From: Chloroflexus sp.
GTDB lineage: Bacteria; Chloroflexota; Anaerolineae; Anaerolineales; Villigracilaceae
Assembly: GCA_020723995.1 (NCBI GenBank)
Contig: DYHT01000010.1
Span: 1 to 52,208 of the forward strand
Reading direction: 5' to 3'
DNA: 52,208 nucleotides
Shown here: piece after piece, positions 32,334 to 38,763 of the stretch
How the letters are laid out: each line of letters starts with the position of its first letter
How positions within the stretch are numbered: the stretch's first letter is position 1
The notes under the pieces: model-generated
The model's database searches: none
Seen by the model: only the letters and a program-made list of their open reading frames with translations
Told to the model about the DNA's origin: nothing
Translations under genes and position numbers: made by a program

Positions 32334-32729
32334 ATGAAATCAACAACCTGGATGTATATCGGTGCGGTAATTCTTCTTCTCCTGGCCGCTGCCGGTCTTT
32401 GCGTGGGAGGCTTTATTCTCCTTGGCGCTGTTGGCGGAGCACAGGGCGTAACAGAGGTTGGAAGTGCCGGAATGTGCATTGGCGCGATCGCGCTCGTGGC
32501 CGGAATCATTTTGATCGTTATGGCTGCCCGCAAAATAAAACAAGAGACGGCTCAGAACGTCACCCTCAAAGTGGACCTGCCCGGCGAAACCAGGATCGAG
32601 CAAATGAAGTGCCGTTCCTGCGGCGGGTCGCTGACAACCGATAACATTAAACTGGTCAACGGCGCACCAATGGTCTCCTGCCCTTATTGCAATACGGTTT
32701 ATCAAATAACCGAGGAACCGAAGTGGTAG
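32334..32729 (+). CDS. Small membrane protein with a C-terminal zinc ribbon
   Basis: This 131-aa protein of unrecognised family has two hydrophobic segments near the N-terminus (about residues 8-30 and 40-62), then a cytoplasmic tail with CRSCGGSL and CPYCNTVY, a typical zinc-ribbon pair. The ATG at 32334 follows TCGGAGGTG; the open frame from 32199 lacks a site. It immediately precedes the DUF2207/radical SAM cluster and may be its membrane-bound zinc-ribbon component (inference). Confidence 0.75.
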   Translation: MKSTTWMYIGAVILLLLAAAGLCVGGFILLGAVGGAQGVTEVGSAGMCIGAIALVAGIILIVMAARKIKQETAQNVTLKVDLPGETRIEQMKCRSCGGSLTTDNIKLVNGAPMVSCPYCNTVYQITEEPKW

Positions 32730-32792
32730 TTTACGTTTTACGCATTACGTTTTATGAGCATCGTGAAACGTAATACGTAACCGGAGGGAACT
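32730..32792 (+). repeat. AT-rich inverted spacer repeat
   Basis: Repeated TACGTTTTACGCATTACG units are followed by AAACGTAATACGTAA, which can pair back as an imperfect hairpin. It is a spacer repeat between two genes of the same strand, with no T-tract to suggest a full terminator. Confidence 0.45.
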
Positions 32793-34439
32793 ATGAAACG
32801 ACGCATTACTTTATTGCTCGTCACCATCCTGCTGCTGGTCACGACCACCACGGCCGCGGCGCAGTCATACTCGTTCAGCCTGGACCAGGAAGTCGTCCAC
32901 GTTTTCTGGAACAGCGACGGGACGCTGGCGCTGGATTACACCTTTGTCTTCAGCAACGATTCCGGGGCCAGCCCGATTGATTTCGTAGACGTGGGCATGC
33001 CCAACGGGAATTACGACTTCGACAGCATCTCCGCCTACGTGGACGGAAATCCGGTCACCATCTCGTCCGATTATTATGGGGATGGCGCGTACGGCTTCTC
33101 GGTGGACATGGGCGCGTACGCTATCCAGCCCGGCCAGCGCGGTACCGTCCGCGTGGTCGTCGGGCGCATCACCCGCATGATCTACCCCGACGACAACGAC
33201 GCCAATCTGGCCAGCGGCGAGTTTTCGCCAACCTGGTTCGGGTCCGCGTACGTGCACGGGACGACCGACCTAACCGTCGTTTTTCACCTGCCGCCCGGCG
33301 TTCAGCCCAGCGAGCCGCGCTATCACATCCCGCGTGGCGGCTGGCCCGGCAGTGACGTCCCCGAATTCGGCTACGATACCCAGGATCGCATCACCTACAC
33401 CTGGCGCAGCCCGGCCGCCAACGGTTACACCCAGTACACCTTCGGCGCATCGTTCCCGAAGCAATACATCCCGGCGGATGCTATCGTGACGACCCCGGCC
33501 TTTAGCATTGACATGGATACCATCATTGCCTGGGCGTTCTTCGGCTGCTTTGGCCTCATCTTCTTCGTCGCGCCGATTCTGGGCGTCATCAGCGAGCGCA
33601 GACGCAAAATGCAGTACCTGCCGCCCAAGATCGCCATCGAAGGACACGGCATCAAGCGCGGCCTAACTGCCGTCGAGTCAGCCATCCTCATGGAACAGCC
33701 GCTCGATAAGGTCATGACCATGATCCTATTTGGCGTGGTGAAGAAAAATGCCGCCGCGGTCATCACCCGCGACCCGCTTAAATTACAGGTAGTCCAACCC
33801 TTACCTGAAGGACTGCACGCGTACGAGAAGGAATTCCTGCAGGCTTTCAGTGACTCGAACAAGACCCCAAAAATCGGCCTGCAAGAGATGACTGTTAATC
33901 TGGTCAAATCCGTCAGCGACAAAATGAAGGGCTTCAGCCGAAAGGAAACGGCTGAATATTACAAAAACATCATGGAGCGCGCCTGGCAGCAAATCGAAGC
34001 CGCAGATACCCCGGAGGTAAAGAGTGAGATGTACGAGCAGTCCCTGGAATGGACGATGCTTGACCGCGATTACGACGACCGCACCCGCCGCGTTTTCACC
34101 GGCCCGGTCTTTGTTCCGATGTGGTGGGGCCGCTACGACCCGGCCTATAGCTCTCCCGCCGCCGGCGCGCCCAAAATGGCCTCGGTCATGCCATCCGCGC
34201 CTGCGGGACGCACCGCCTCCGTGCCTGGCTCGGCCTTTGCTGCTTCGGTGGTCACCAGCGTGCAGACCTTCTCCAGCAAAGTCATCGGCGATGTGGGCGG
34301 ATTTACGTCCAAAGTCACGGCCAAGACCAATCCGCCTCCCAAAGTCAGCAGCGGCGGCGGCGGACGCAGCAGGGGCGGCTGCGCCTGCGCTTGCGCCTGT
34401 GCGGGCTGCGCCTGCGCCTGCGCGGGAGGAGGAAGATAG
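32793..34439 (+). CDS. DUF2207 membrane protein with a C-terminal Cys-Ala repeat tail
   Basis: This 548-aa protein has a signal peptide (residues 1-23), an extracytoplasmic beta-rich DUF2207 domain (about 24-230), one or two membrane segments (about 235-265) and a cytoplasmic helical region. The tail is low-complexity: Gly/Ser/Arg, then CACACACAGCACACA (seven cysteines alternating with alanine) and GGGR at the very end. Many DUF2207 proteins end in plain glycine-rich tails; the dense cysteines here are striking. The next gene encodes a radical SAM/SPASM enzyme, a class that often modifies cysteine-containing peptides, so the tail is a candidate modification or metal-binding site (inference). 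GGAGGG precedes the ATG. Confidence 0.85.
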   Translation: MKRRITLLLVTILLLVTTTTAAAQSYSFSLDQEVVHVFWNSDGTLALDYTFVFSNDSGASPIDFVDVGMPNGNYDFDSISAYVDGNPVTISSDYYGDGAYGFSVDMGAYAIQPGQRGTVRVVVGRITRMIYPDDNDANLASGEFSPTWFGSAYVHGTTDLTVVFHLPPGVQPSEPRYHIPRGGWPGSDVPEFGYDTQDRITYTWRSPAANGYTQYTFGASFPKQYIPADAIVTTPAFSIDMDTIIAWAFFGCFGLIFFVAPILGVISERRRKMQYLPPKIAIEGHGIKRGLTAVESAILMEQPLDKVMTMILFGVVKKNAAAVITRDPLKLQVVQPLPEGLHAYEKEFLQAFSDSNKTPKIGLQEMTVNLVKSVSDKMKGFSRKETAEYYKNIMERAWQQIEAADTPEVKSEMYEQSLEWTMLDRDYDDRTRRVFTGPVFVPMWWGRYDPAYSSPAAGAPKMASVMPSAPAGRTASVPGSAFAASVVTSVQTFSSKVIGDVGGFTSKVTAKTNPPPKVSSGGGGRSRGGCACACACAGCACACAGGGR

Positions 34440-34485
34440 TTGCAGGTTACAGGTCGAAGGTTTATAAAGTAGAAGGTTTATGGGT

Positions 34486-35853
34486 ATGACATTCACTGAA
34501 ACCATCAAGACGGTTTTCAATCGTCAATCGTCAATCGTCAATCGTCAATTGCCAAGCCTGTATCACTACCTCCACGAAGGCAACGGCGAGAAAAGCCGCA
34601 TCCATCTGCGCCTCGATGCCGACGGCCACGGCACGTTGATTGTCAATGCCAATCGCATCCTGCATCTCAATCCGAGCGCAGCCCGGATGGCATATTTGCT
34701 TTTGGAAGGCACGGACGAAGCCGGAACAGTCCGCAGCATTCAAAAACAATACCGTGTAAATCGAAAACGGGCCATCGCAGACGTGCAAACGTTCAACCTG
34801 CAACTTTCCAACCTGCTCCGCCCGGATGGCGCTTGCCTGATCCACGATCTCGACCTGGAAACTACCGCGCCATTTTCCGCGCGGCCCTCCGCGCCCTACC
34901 GCATGGACCTGGCGCTGACCTACCGCTGCAACAACGACTGCACGCATTGCTATAACGTGCGTCCCCTCTCCCCCCGGGAGAGGGGTAGGGGTGAGGGCGA
35001 ACTCCCTATCGCCGACTGGAAGCGCATCCTGGACAAGGCCTGGGAACTGGGCATTCCGCACATCATCTTCACCGGCGGCGAGCCGACATTGAGAAACGAT
35101 TTAACTGAACTCATTTCGCACGCGGAACAGAATGGACAAATCACCGGACTGAACACGAATGCCCGCCGATTGAGCGACGCGCGCTACGTGGAATCGCTTG
35201 TCACCGCTGGCCTCGACCACGTGCAGATCACGGTCGAATCGCACGACGTTGAAATCCACGACCGGATGGTGCGCGCCAAAGGCGCATTTTCACAAACTAT
35301 TTCCGGATTGAAAAACGCCCTCACCACGCGGCTTTATGTCATGACCAACACCACCATGCTGCGCGATAATGTTCATACTATTCCGGCCACACTCGATTTT
35401 CTAGCCGAACTGGGCGTGCCGACCATTGGCCTGAACGCGCTGATTTACTCGGGGCGCGGCGCGACGGTTGGAACAGGATTAGCAGAAAGCGAATTGGCGC
35501 CGCTGCTCGAAATTGCCTGCACAAAAACCGAAGCGCGCGGCCAGCGCCTCATCTGGTATACACCCACACAGTACTGCAGCTTCGACCCGATATCGCTGGA
35601 TCTGGGCGTGAAGGGCTGCACTGCCGCGTTGTATAACATGTGCGTCGAACCGGATGGCAGCGTGCTGCCCTGCCAATCTTACTATAAACCGCTTGGCAAT
35701 CTGCTCAACGATACTTGGGATTCCATCTGGAATCATGAGTTATCGGTCAAACTCCGTGAGCGTCATGGATTGCCGGATAAGTGCAATGGCTGTGCCTTGT
35801 TGGCGGAGTGCGGCGGCGGATGTCCGCTTCAGTTCGAAAGTTTGAAGGTTTGA
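34486..35853 (+). CDS. Radical SAM/SPASM enzyme with N-terminal PqqD-like domain
   Basis: This protein of about 455 aa has a PqqD-like/RRE region at residues 25-120 (IHLRLDADGHGTLIVNANRILHLNP). The radical SAM core carries CX3CX2C at Cys148, Cys152 and Cys155 (CNNDCTHC), then FTGGEPTLRNDL. A C-terminal SPASM-type cysteine set follows (CVEPDGSVLPCQ, KCNGCALLAECGGGCP). It is likely a peptide- or protein-modifying enzyme. About 11 residues after the first cluster motif (LSPRERGRGEG) are encoded by the GC palindrome at 34961-34998, inserted in frame. Near the start, TCAATCG tandem repeats encode low-complexity sequence. The ATG at 34486 fits AGAAGG better than that at 34480. Confidence 0.87.
   Translation: MTFTETIKTVFNRQSSIVNRQLPSLYHYLHEGNGEKSRIHLRLDADGHGTLIVNANRILHLNPSAARMAYLLLEGTDEAGTVRSIQKQYRVNRKRAIADVQTFNLQLSNLLRPDGACLIHDLDLETTAPFSARPSAPYRMDLALTYRCNNDCTHCYNVRPLSPRERGRGEGELPIADWKRILDKAWELGIPHIIFTGGEPTLRNDLTELISHAEQNGQITGLNTNARRLSDARYVESLVTAGLDHVQITVESHDVEIHDRMVRAKGAFSQTISGLKNALTTRLYVMTNTTMLRDNVHTIPATLDFLAELGVPTIGLNALIYSGRGATVGTGLAESELAPLLEIACTKTEARGQRLIWYTPTQYCSFDPISLDLGVKGCTAALYNMCVEPDGSVLPCQSYYKPLGNLLNDTWDSIWNHELSVKLRERHGLPDKCNGCALLAECGGGCPLQFESLKV
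34516..34549 (+). repeat. Heptamer tandem repeat TCAATCG within the radical SAM gene
   Basis: About four and a half copies of TCAATCG lie inside codons 11-22. Because seven is not a multiple of three, loss or gain of one unit would shift the frame, so the 5' end is a possible phase-variable site. Related AATCG units fill the gap at 36276-36366. Confidence 0.6.
34961..34998. repeat. GC palindromic repeat inserted in the radical SAM gene
   Basis: CCCCTCTCCC (34963-34972) and GGGAGAGGGG (34976-34985) form a perfect 10-bp palindrome, followed by GGGGTGAGGG. It is the same family as at 25311 and 39307, and the reading frame is preserved. The homologous radical SAM-like protein at 36367 lacks this insertion. 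Confidence 0.7.
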
Positions 35854-35933
35854 AAGTTTTCAGGTTGCGTTTTACCTTTCACGCCTCACTCATCACTCAT
35901 CACTCCTCACTTATCACTCATCACGGAGACCCT
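35854..35933 (+). repeat. Low-complexity spacer (TCACTCA units)
   Basis: The spacer between the radical SAM gene and the PAS gene is made largely of TCACTCA/TCATCAC units (35886-35923), ending in the CGGAGA ribosome binding site of the next start. No hairpin terminator is seen, so the genes are probably co-transcribed. Confidence 0.45.
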
Positions 35934-36275
35934 ATGTCCACAATCCCCTGGTTCGACGAATTCCCCGGCGCCATCACCATCTGCGACGCCGAAGGCATCA
36001 TTCTCGACATGAACGACGCGGCTGCTGAAGTCTTTAAAGATGACGGCGGGCGCGCACTCATCGGCAAAAACGTGCTGGATAGCCGCCCCGAACCGGCGCG
36101 CGGCCAACTGGAACGCATGCTGGACAAGCAGCAGAAGAATGTCTACACCATCGAGAAGAAGGGCAGGAAGAAACTCATCTACTAGACGCCCTGGTACAAA
36201 GATGGTGTCTATGCCGGTTTCATCGAACTCTCGCTCGAAATTCCGTTCGAGATGCAACACTTCGTGAGAGATTAG
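35934..36275 (+). pseudogene. Small PAS-domain protein interrupted by an in-frame TAG
   Basis: The 113-codon frame encodes a single PAS domain: AITICDAEGIILDMNDAAAEVF at the front, then LIGKNVLDSRPEPARGQLERM. Codon 84 (36183-36185) is TAG, after KKGRKKLIY. The same frame continues without interruption as TPWYKDGVYAGFIELSLEI and ends at TAG 36273-36275, completing the last PAS strands. A CAG to TAG change explains it. The 83-aa product lacks the final beta strands and is probably unstable. CGGAGA precedes the ATG. In its intact form it would be a sensor or ligand-binding partner in the radical SAM cluster. Confidence 0.8.
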
Positions 36276-36366
36276 AGATTCGAGAATCGAGATTCGTCAA
36301 TCGTAAATCATAAATCGACAATCGCAAATCCTAACTCGCAACCCACGCCCCGAAAGGAGGCCGCTT
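36276..36366 (+). repeat. AT-rich AATCG-unit spacer
   Basis: Imperfect repeats of AATCGTA/AATCGCA/GATTCG fill most of this gap. It ends in a consensus AAAGGAGG ribosome binding site for the start at 36367. Confidence 0.45.
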
Positions 36367-37515
36367 ATGGCATCAGTCATCAACTTGATCCGTGAACGTT
36401 TCGCCCGCGTCCAGCCCTTACCCGCCGAGACACATCATTACCAATCCCCGCCGGATGAACCCGCCTACCGCCTGCACCTGCGGATGCAGAAAGACGGCTC
36501 CGGCATTCTCATTGTCAACGCGGCAACAGTCTTGCATCTTAATCCAACCGCCGCCGAATATGCCTATCACATGCTGAAAGGCACGCCGCCGGAGGAAGCC
36601 GCCAAACAGATCGCCAGGCGCTACCGCGTCAGCAAAGCGCTGGCATTGCAGGACTTTGTGGACTTCCGCGACCGCGTCCAGACCATGATCCATACCCCCG
36701 ACCTCGACCCGACCGCTTTCCTGGACTTTGAGCGGGTCGCGCCGCATTCTCAGGCTTTGACCGCCCCGCTGCGCCTGGACTGCGCCCTGACCTACCGTCT
36801 GCCGCACGGCGCAGACACGTCCGCCGCGCCGACCAAGCGCGTCGAGCGCGAACTGACCACCGAAGAGTGGCAGACCATCATGAACAAGGCCTGGGCCGTC
36901 GGCATCCCGCATGTCGTCTTCACCGGCGGCGAACCGACGCTGCGCGATGATTTACCCACTCTCATCACCCACGCCGAGAAGAACGGCCAGGTCTGCGGCC
37001 TGCTTTCGGACGGCTTGAAAATGGCCGATAAAAAGTACCTGCAAACGCTGCTGCAAACCGGCCTCGATCACCTGCTCTTCACCCTCCAACCGGATGAAAA
37101 AGAATCCTGGAAGGCGCTGGAAACAATCATGCCGGAAGACTTGTTCACCACCGTGCATTTGACCGTCACGCCGCAGAACGTCAAGAAGGGAAGGGAAATT
37201 CTCGAAAGACTGGCGAAACTGGAAGTCAAAAGCCTTTCTTTGAGCGCCTCCAATGCTTCGCTCAAAGATGATCTCGCCGGACTGCGCCAGCGCGCCGCCG
37301 AATTGGGCCTCTCGGTCAAATTCGACCTGCCGGTGCCTTACTCTGCCGATAACCCGGTGGCCCACGAAACCGCCGAGGATAGTGTCATTGATGGCGCGGG
37401 CAAGGCCTGGCTCTACGTCGAGCCGGATGGCGACGTGCTGCCCACGCAGGGCGAAGCGGACAAAATCCTGGGGAATTTCCTGCGGGATCCGTGGGAGCAA
37501 ATCCACAACCAATGA
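36367..37515 (+). CDS. Degenerate radical SAM-like protein without cluster cysteines
   Basis: This 382-aa paralogue of the enzyme at 34486 shares the N-terminal PqqD-like region (RMQKDGSGILIVNAATVLHLNP) and the core motif VFTGGEPTLRDDL. The CX3CX2C site is replaced by TYRLPHGADTSA, with no cysteines. The C-terminal SPASM cysteines are also missing: CVEPDGSVLPCQ becomes YVEPDGDVLPTQ, and the protein ends before the last Cys-rich segment. It cannot bind the catalytic 4Fe-4S cluster. With an intact frame and an AAAGGAGG site, it is more likely a maintained pseudo-enzyme partner (binding or scaffold subunit) than a decaying copy. Confidence 0.82.
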   Translation: MASVINLIRERFARVQPLPAETHHYQSPPDEPAYRLHLRMQKDGSGILIVNAATVLHLNPTAAEYAYHMLKGTPPEEAAKQIARRYRVSKALALQDFVDFRDRVQTMIHTPDLDPTAFLDFERVAPHSQALTAPLRLDCALTYRLPHGADTSAAPTKRVERELTTEEWQTIMNKAWAVGIPHVVFTGGEPTLRDDLPTLITHAEKNGQVCGLLSDGLKMADKKYLQTLLQTGLDHLLFTLQPDEKESWKALETIMPEDLFTTVHLTVTPQNVKKGREILERLAKLEVKSLSLSASNASLKDDLAGLRQRAAELGLSVKFDLPVPYSADNPVAHETAEDSVIDGAGKAWLYVEPDGDVLPTQGEADKILGNFLRDPWEQIHNQ

Positions 37516-37587
37516 CACGCTTATCGGTGGGGCTTCGCGAAGCACTCCCGAAGAGAGAAGCCCGCCGAAAGCGGAAGGAAGGAGTAA

Positions 37588-38763
37588 ATGACCCCCCGCC
37601 ATCCGCAAGCGTCTCGTTCAAATCAGTTTTGGATATTTTCAAAATTCTGCTCGTCTTTTGCCCTTTTCGCGTCTTTCGCGTTCAAGAAACCGCGAGTCAA
37701 AAATCGAAGATCGTTGATTGGTATCCTGCTCATTGCTCTTTTCGTCCTCACCGCCGCCTGCATCTGCATCCCCTACGTTCCACTCCAGCCTGACGCCCCC
37801 ACCCAGCCGCCAGTCATCGTCGAAAGCGCGACGCCAACCGCCACTGAGACCACCACACCCAGCCCCTCGCCCTCACCGCAGATCGTCTGTCCGAGCCTGC
37901 TAGCGGAAATGTTGGCGGCTTCGGAAGGAGGCGACGCCCCCTCGAAATCGCCCCGCCGCAGATTGCCAGTCATTAAAAACGTGAAAATTCTGGTTACTTA
38001 TCAGGTCGAGGGCGATCAATTGGCCAACCCCGAGCTGGATTCTGTCCCGGCGAGCCTGCGCTCTTACCAACAGGATGCCGCCACGCAGTGGGCCATCTGG
38101 GATTATTTCACTGCTATCATCCCAGCCGACCAGCGTGAGATCGTCAACCAATACATTGTCTTCACCGATGGCCGCGAGGAATTCCTGGCCGCCGTCGCAC
38201 AGGATGATTACGATCCGGCGCTTTGGTCGCTGAATGTGGACATCCTGGATTCTAGTGACCAAAAAGCCCTCGGCGCGACGCTCCTGCACGAGTTCGGCCA
38301 CCTGCTGACGCTGAACACCTCACAAGTCGTGACCGACATGAACGTCTACGAGGACCCGGACGACCAGCAGGCTTACGACCAGGCTGCGGCGGCCTGTCCG
38401 CAGTACTTCGCTGCAGAGGGTTGCAGCCTTCTAGATTCCTACATCAACCGCTTCTACCAGCGCTTCTGGCCCGATATCTACGCTCAATGGGAACAGATCA
38501 ACGCGATAGAAGACGATGATGCGCGCGACGAGCGCCTCTACGATTTCTACACAGCCAACCGAGATCAATTTGTGACCGACTACGCGGTGACCAGCCCGGA
38601 AGAGGACATCGCCGAGTCATGGGTGTTCTTCATCCTCGACCACAAACCGGCTGGCGATACCATCGCAGAGCAGAAAGTGCTGTTCTTCTATGATTGGCCC
38701 GAACTTGCCGGACTGCGTGACGAGATCATCAGCCGGACGTGCACCTACTTCAACCAGCCATAG
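37588..38763 (+). CDS. Putative lipoprotein zinc metallopeptidase (HEXXH)
   Basis: This 391-aa protein has an N-terminal hydrophobic stretch ending in a lipobox-like LTAAC (Cys58), a Thr/Pro/Ser-rich linker (about 66-98) and a C-terminal domain with LLHEFGHLLTL (zinc-binding HEXXH, residues 234-238). A downstream Glu in SPEEDIAESW is the likely third ligand, as in gluzincins. It is therefore a probable extracytoplasmic membrane-anchored peptidase. The ATG at 37588 has AAGGAAGGAG upstream, although the stretch before residue 40 looks like translated spacer repeat, so a later start (TTG near 37711) is possible. Its place after the two radical SAM-like genes makes a processing role conceivable. 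Confidence 0.72.
   Translation: MTPRHPQASRSNQFWIFSKFCSSFALFASFAFKKPRVKNRRSLIGILLIALFVLTAACICIPYVPLQPDAPTQPPVIVESATPTATETTTPSPSPSPQIVCPSLLAEMLAASEGGDAPSKSPRRRLPVIKNVKILVTYQVEGDQLANPELDSVPASLRSYQQDAATQWAIWDYFTAIIPADQREIVNQYIVFTDGREEFLAAVAQDDYDPALWSLNVDILDSSDQKALGATLLHEFGHLLTLNTSQVVTDMNVYEDPDDQQAYDQAAAACPQYFAAEGCSLLDSYINRFYQRFWPDIYAQWEQINAIEDDDARDERLYDFYTANRDQFVTDYAVTSPEEDIAESWVFFILDHKPAGDTIAEQKVLFFYDWPELAGLRDEIISRTCTYFNQP

Follow-up and report, generated by a model that had tools for sequence, protein, structure and literature searches.

Cys-Ala-tailed membrane proteins and their paired radical SAM/SPASM enzymes: a candidate maturation system in Chloroflexota

Can a radical S-adenosylmethionine (SAM) enzyme have as its substrate the C-terminus of a membrane protein that is large and resident in the cell? 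This question is raised by a locus at positions 32334-38763 on the + strand of contig DYHT01000010.1 (52,208 nt, the whole of which is called the window here), where a membrane protein ending in an alternating Cys-Ala tail is followed by an enzyme with PqqD, radical SAM and SPASM domains. The genes are ordered on this strand as one for a small transmembrane (TM)/zinc-ribbon protein, the tail protein, the enzyme, a PAS protein, a paralogue of the enzyme lacking cluster cysteines (pseudo-enzyme) and an HEXXH protein; the coordinates and common strand that an earlier note on this DNA had assigned all held. We consider it likely that they form a dedicated maturation system, in which the enzyme modifies the Cys-Ala tail of its resident membrane protein and the tail is retained.

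The Cys-Ala tail is nearly invariant among Chloroflexota loci

The tail protein (32793-34439, + strand, 548 residues) ends in GGCACACACAGCACACAGGGR, its last residues also being given as SRGGCACACACAGCACACAGGGR. Seven cysteines alternating with alanine at the extreme C-terminus and then GGGR, as the earlier note had described, were read directly from the translation; they lie in two blocks of four and three (CACACACAGCACACA followed by GGGR), and the tail CACACACAGCACACAGGGR (34380-34436, + strand) is the proposed core and substrate. The protein is single-copy in the 2.1-Mb assembly (85% complete), and when the window was read as 556 stop-to-stop frames (minimum 50 residues), it alone carried more than 4 Cys in its last 20 residues.

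GTDB genomes were scanned with the whole tail protein as the query, the search words not including the tail itself; this gave 78 loci, which, with such a close-relative query, were all from Chloroflexota, nearly all of them labelled Anaerolineae or plain Chloroflexi; the cultured Longilinea arvoryzae KOME-1 (L078) has the system. The 3′ end was readable in about 75 of the 78 (L069 and L077 are cut), and CACACA..GCACACAGGGR ends all readable loci except one (74/75), among them two that carry one or two substitutions. L034 was rejected as a tail-less case, because its frame enters unrelated sequence near a contig end. At the DNA level, the 78 tails (window, relatives and paralogues counted) comprised 78 different sequences with synonymous changes at every codon, and 76 of the 78 read CACACAGCACACAGGGR followed by the stop, that is, with identical last 17 residues. 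Because 78 distinct DNAs encode near-identical residues, an origin of the tail from a DNA repeat, low-complexity sequence or chance was ruled out, and, judged from its codons, the tail is under extreme selection. The first block carries three to five Cys and the second always three in this group of relatives.

Two further forms of the protein were observed. A shortened paralogue, comprising the N-terminal domain and TM segment and lacking the cytosolic half and the tail, lies directly upstream of the full-length gene at L032:2603-3430, L046:4199-5038, L076:5954-6805 and L081:1985-2812. At L102:990-4409 (G048), a 1139-residue Ser/Thr kinase-AAA protein beside an enzyme gene carries the same Cys-Ala tail, together with the leader-like segment described below; as it comes from a single metagenome-assembled genome (MAG) and may be an assembly chimera, it was rejected as proof of module mobility and is not used as evidence.

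Tail and enzyme genes keep their order and vary together

The conserved order was zinc-ribbon gene, tail protein, enzyme, optional PAS gene, pseudo-enzyme and optional HEXXH gene, and it was kept across the 78 Chloroflexota loci, which answers the check on gene order that the earlier note had proposed. The enzyme was present in 75/78 loci, the remaining three being two that are cut inside the tail protein and L034; the pseudo-enzyme was present in 65/78, most of the others ending at contig ends and L047 lacking a pseudo-enzyme within 8.5 kb. The flanks are also conserved, in that a divergent methylmalonyl-CoA mutase gene recurs there along with downstream genes whose sequences point to a methyltransferase and a signal peptidase, and therefore this is a stable chromosomal locus and not a mobile cluster. 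The tail pattern had no match in viral contigs and the enzyme none in plasmids, and, given also the conserved chromosomal neighbourhood, spread by phage or plasmid was rejected.

Co-occurrence was assayed in 298 Anaerolineae-class genomes using a scaffold profile, a tail DNA pattern and an enzyme profile. The scaffold profile and the tail pattern matched the identical 39 genomes, and the profile of the window-type enzyme (enzyme A) was found at E<=1e-130 in 39/39 of these vs 4/259 others (Fisher p about 1e-44, a value not to be read literally because the samples share ancestry). Three of the four enzyme-only genomes have the gene at contig ends (G006, G128 and G157), and the fourth (G005) is from a family with unlinked enzyme and tail genes. 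The co-variation that the earlier note had asked for was thus borne out with almost no exception, and a Cys-Ala tail without the enzyme, which it had named as contrary evidence, occurred in 0/39.

The systems lie on chromosomes and cluster within families by vertical descent, which would suit an association due to inherited linkage or common ancestry alone, without any functional bond. Against this, the pairing is kept when the genes are unlinked: in G100, G173, G234 and G254 the tail and enzyme genes lie apart on different contigs among other neighbours with both present, and in G059 they are likewise unlinked and both present. Moreover, the family to which the window belongs (f1) includes genera g2, g4 and g5, within which the tail protein and the enzyme are jointly present or jointly absent. 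Together with the match of two tail types to two enzyme subfamilies described below, these observations make an association without function very improbable.

A second tail type is paired with its own enzyme subfamily

A more distant group of enzymes (enzyme B; E 1e-70 to 1e-96) adjoins another DUF2207-like membrane protein with a 50-residue CHSAC-repeat tail. This tail is all but invariant in a set of 18 proteins, the first of which has 42-58% identity to the 17 others. Here the gene for the tail protein is followed by those for enzyme B, a coiled-coil protein, a TM plus zinc-ribbon protein and an HEXXH protease, in this order. CHSAC arrays were found in 32/298 genomes, and enzyme B in 31/32 of these vs 2/266 others (p about 1e-38). 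The exceptions are G118, which has enzyme B adjacent, and the array-less G024 and G225, which have enzyme B near a contig end. No cross-association of either tail with the other enzyme was found, and G276 and G307 hold both systems and both enzymes (the search in the class of G307 comprised G307 only). The two scaffolds align as homologues across residues 1-408 (hhalign 99.8%, E 6.6e-29), and the tails and enzymes differ; therefore tail and enzyme are what changed together. Common to both tail types is an Ala-Cys step, at a spacing of two or four, and a third variant with a 3+4 tail (CACACAGCACACACAGGGR) belongs to one enzyme clade (support 98/99) from families f23, f37 and f52.

These results indicated that tail type matches enzyme subfamily one to one, and a chance association is very unlikely because the second tail type has its own enzyme subfamily. 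Such matching strongly supports the tail as the substrate of the enzyme. What the earlier note had offered as a conjecture, that the enzyme acts on the tail, is now backed by gene order, the 39/39 co-occurrence and the second tail/enzyme pair, with the chemical modification itself being what we infer.

The CxCxC spacing and the Cys/His repeats of CHSAC also look metal-binding, and a zinc-ribbon membrane protein occurs in both systems, as would fit an unmodified metal- or iron-sulfur (Fe-S)-binding, metallothionein-like tail, with the enzyme acting otherwise in the same pathway, e.g. on another molecule or cofactor. Metal binding does not predict, however, that each tail type should have its own subfamily of enzymes bearing a recognition element (RRE) for ribosomally synthesized and post-translationally modified peptides (RiPPs), also when unlinked, nor does it predict the strictly fixed GGGR end, and we regard it as unlikely.

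The enzyme resembles RiPP maturases and its paralogue lacks the cluster cysteines

The proposed tail maturase (34480-35853, + strand, 457 residues) was assigned by Pfam and conserved Cys. All three domains named in the earlier note scored over cut-off, with Radical_SAM at 89.8 bits, SPASM at 39.3 bits (PF13186, cut-off 21.5) and PqqD, the RRE, at 26.2 bits (PF05402, cut-off 23.4). Conservation reaches at least 60/61 type A enzymes for each of 12 Cys, of which three belong to the radical SAM cluster and seven to SPASM, the other two being C119 and C366; the three CX3CX2C cysteines are all present in 61/61 type A relatives, and every enzyme in the tree, A (35/35) or B (26/26), has the motif. SPASM was found in 35/35 enzymes, and the RRE was matched in 34/35 at E<=0.01. 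The closest solved structures include SkfB 6efn (5.6e-24, the best), PqqE 6c8v and SuiB 5v1q, which are RiPP maturases. For ThnB, a related maturase, the title of a work cited in PMC6779426 states that the PqqD domain is required.

The paralogue (36367-37515, + strand, 382 residues) had been described as a second PqqD-domain radical SAM-like protein without cysteines. The cluster Cys are indeed absent, with 0 in 58/58 relatives, but two Cys remain in the whole protein, and the PqqD match (19.3 bits) lies under the Pfam cut-off of 23.4, while the predicted fold keeps the same N-terminal element. The model (predicted local distance difference test score 82.9) has an RRE-like N-terminus plus a barrel, and its nearest folds are SkfB, PqqE and SuiB. 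The Anaerolineales-type pseudo-enzymes are monophyletic (support 100/100) and group within the same enzyme family. Families f23, f37 and f52 have another paralogue, without CX3CX2C and retaining SPASM-type Cys; pseudo-enzymes thus occur in both lineages.

Several repeats touch the enzyme gene. A palindromic repeat at 34965-35000 (CTCTCCC..CGGGAGAGGGG..GGGTGAGGG), with six genomic copies, lies in frame directly after CX3CX2C (PLSPRERGRGEGE), and a near relative (L141) carries a different repeat-like insertion in the same loop. Short repeats of the type AATCGTCAATCG, at 34525-34550 and 36280-36335 between genes, reach the predicted N-terminus of the enzyme, whose true start may lie further downstream than predicted.

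The tail is predicted to lie in the cytosol behind a leader-like segment

The tail protein has a signal peptide, an extracytoplasmic beta-sandwich, one TM helix and a cytosolic helical domain, and in the predicted model these appear as a confident beta-sandwich at residues 28-222, a TM segment at 241-273 and a helical domain at 293-434, followed by a disordered end. Lys/Arg averaged 0.3 before the TM vs 4.6 after it; therefore, by the positive-inside rule, the tail should be on the cytosolic side, the compartment in which an enzyme that needs SAM and Fe-S clusters operates. Immediately ahead of a Gly/Ser linker, residues 476-516 (34218-34340, + strand) follow the pattern ..PG..FAAS..Q.FS.KVIG..FT..VT..TNPPP, in which P478, G479, A483, Q491, G499, F504, T505, T512, N513, P514 and P516 are invariant in 35 sequences. 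This conserved segment would fit a fused leader and is a candidate recognition element.

The extracytoplasmic domain (32862-33467, residues 24-225) resembles the beta-sandwiches of Ost1/ribophorin I and M1 aminopeptidase (Z 16.9, root-mean-square deviation 2.8, 184 aligned); a function was not taken from this likeness, as a fold match does not indicate function. The label DUF2207, given to the protein in the earlier note, could apply to it through homology: the window protein itself has no Pfam match, including to DUF2207 (PF09972), and the link runs through its CHSAC-tailed homologues, one of which matches DUF2207 at 25.4 vs the cut-off of 24.4 and is tied to the window scaffold by the hhalign comparison above.

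Proposed maturation of the tail in place

Taking the conserved operon, the near-invariant tail and the tail-enzyme co-occurrence as observed, we infer the binding, catalysis, chemistry and function as follows. The position of a leader-like segment ahead of the linker and a cytosolic tail led us to propose leader binding by the RRE, core modification and tail retention. Once the DUF2207/TIGR04222-like protein is inserted by its one TM helix, its leader-like segment and Cys-Ala tail would face the cytosol; there the enzyme would bind the leader-like segment through its PqqD (RRE) domain and modify the Cys-Ala core by radical chemistry. Sulfur-to-carbon thioether cross-links would be the product most to be expected by analogy, given that SkfB is among the nearest solved relatives and that enzymes of this kind work on cores containing Cys; one may speculate that, if the acceptor were the Ala beta-carbon, the product would be lanthionine made via radical chemistry. 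The pseudo-enzyme, keeping RRE and barrel, probably serves as a leader- and substrate-binding partner, and the modified tail would stay attached and act in the cytosol as a functional part of the protein. The broader proposal, that chromosomal membrane proteins with cytosolic Cys-rich tails are permanently converted in place under two or more tail codes, CACACAG and CHSAC among them, each read by a separate enzyme subfamily and the first helped by a pseudo-enzyme, seems to us an even bet.

A different fate of the tail is suggested by the likeness of the enzyme to PqqE and by the putative HEXXH proteases in many loci of both systems: the tail could be a precursor core released by a protease after modification, or yield a small redox molecule as with pyrroloquinoline quinone (PQQ) and mycofactocin, the membrane protein being a mere carrier. 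In the window, the HEXXH (HEFGH) putative metallopeptidase is encoded at 37588-38763 (+ strand, start codon uncertain). The membrane-anchored HEXXH peptidase of the earlier note is upheld, with a lipoprotein- or TM-anchored prediction and HEXXH in 21/21 relatives; the gene occurs in about 24/78 loci, and matches to Peptidase_Mx1/TIGR04549 are weak and below cut-off. These proteases look extracytoplasmic, however, whereas the tail is predicted to be cytosolic; none of the conserved neighbours was recognised as an exporter, and the scaffold itself is highly conserved, which leaves release of the tail improbable, slightly more so than metal binding.

Modification with retention of the tail, the reading that we prefer, has points against it as well. 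Predictions place the HEXXH peptidase on the outer side of the membrane and the tail on the inner side, so that the proposed scheme gives the peptidase no part. Co-occurrence is partly phylogenetic, with the same families recurring, so that the p-values overstate independence; the joint absences within genera help but are few. Furthermore, co-occurrence is evidence of a functional link and not of catalysis on the tail.

Comparison with known maturation systems

The sactipeptide and ranthipeptide maturases SkfB, SuiB and ThnB, together with PqqE, share with enzyme A an N-terminal fused RRE (a partner protein for PqqE), the CX3CX2C cluster and SPASM auxiliary clusters. The substrates known for these maturases are short peptides, as a rule encoded together with genes for export or a leader peptidase, whereas here the proposed core is the last 19 residues of a 548-residue membrane protein, whose C-terminus is leader-like plus core-like, and the setting is a chromosomal operon with a cluster-less paralogue. 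Enzyme B shares radical SAM/SPASM architecture with the ACGX-repeat system (TIGR04340/TIGR04341) and matches TIGR04340 at 94.8 bits, far under the 400-bit cut-off; TIGR04340 was not among the best 25 matches for enzyme A. The target of the ACGX system is an Ala-Cys repeat peptide family, unlike a membrane-protein tail. The pseudo-enzyme weakly matches TIGR04347, by name a pseudo-SAM/SPASM family and thus a cluster-less radical SAM paralogue, at 50 bits vs a cut-off of 525.

RRE-bearing radical SAM/SPASM enzymes are known mainly for short bioactive peptides and cofactors, and RiPP-type radical SAM chemistry, if carried out on the C-terminal tail of a large membrane protein encoded in the chromosome, would probably be a new variant of that maturation. 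The nearest precedent for the substrate is the TIGR04222 membrane proteins with Cys-containing, Ser/Gly-rich C-terminal tails, proposed as MNIO (DUF692) substrates (PMC12452194). Both are multi-domain membrane proteins with a related helical domain and a Cys tail as the proposed RiPP substrate; they differ in that here the enzyme is a radical SAM protein and the tail is predicted to be cytosolic and fixed, whereas there it is periplasmic and diverse. TIGR04222 scored 12.6 bits for the window protein and 33.8 bits for the CHSAC homologue, against a cut-off of 43. Azole or MNIO chemistry was rejected for the window's genome, as neither YcaO nor MNIO (PF05114) was found in that 85% complete assembly. 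For DUF2207 with radical SAM, no paper on either system was found in the open-access literature, and a prior description in subscription journals is possible. The constancy of the tail makes modification directly testable by mass spectrometry, and the CHSAC system is a natural replicate. If true, the proposal would give DUF2207/TIGR04222-like proteins a testable function, cluster-less radical SAM paralogues a reason and enzyme engineering two clear substrate codes.

Neighbouring genes

The gene at 32334-32729 (+ strand), which opens the range and was absent from the earlier note, is part of the gene set; its translation is a 131-residue membrane protein with two hydrophobic segments and then a cytosolic-side zinc-ribbon-like CxxC...CxxC domain. 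It adjoins the tail protein in nearly all relatives, and the TM plus zinc-ribbon gene of the CHSAC system is analogous. The small PAS protein of the earlier note (35934-36272, + strand) is supported by Pfam in its domain but not as an intact gene, its reading frame being cut by an in-frame TAG at 36183-36185, where 26/26 relatives have Gln. A nonsense mutation or a sequence error in the MAG is the simpler explanation, and suppression or recoding of the TAG was rejected, as the relatives carry a plain Gln. A conserved 340-residue protein with a C-terminal TM segment lies between the enzyme and the pseudo-enzyme at L044:13501-14523 and 25 other loci, and had no confident Pfam or NCBIfam match. 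Finally, a transposase gene of the IS200-like (Y1_Tnp) type separates the tail and enzyme genes, always in the same place, in about eight loci, among them L035:8277-8807, L075:11698-12231 and L015:5372-5899.

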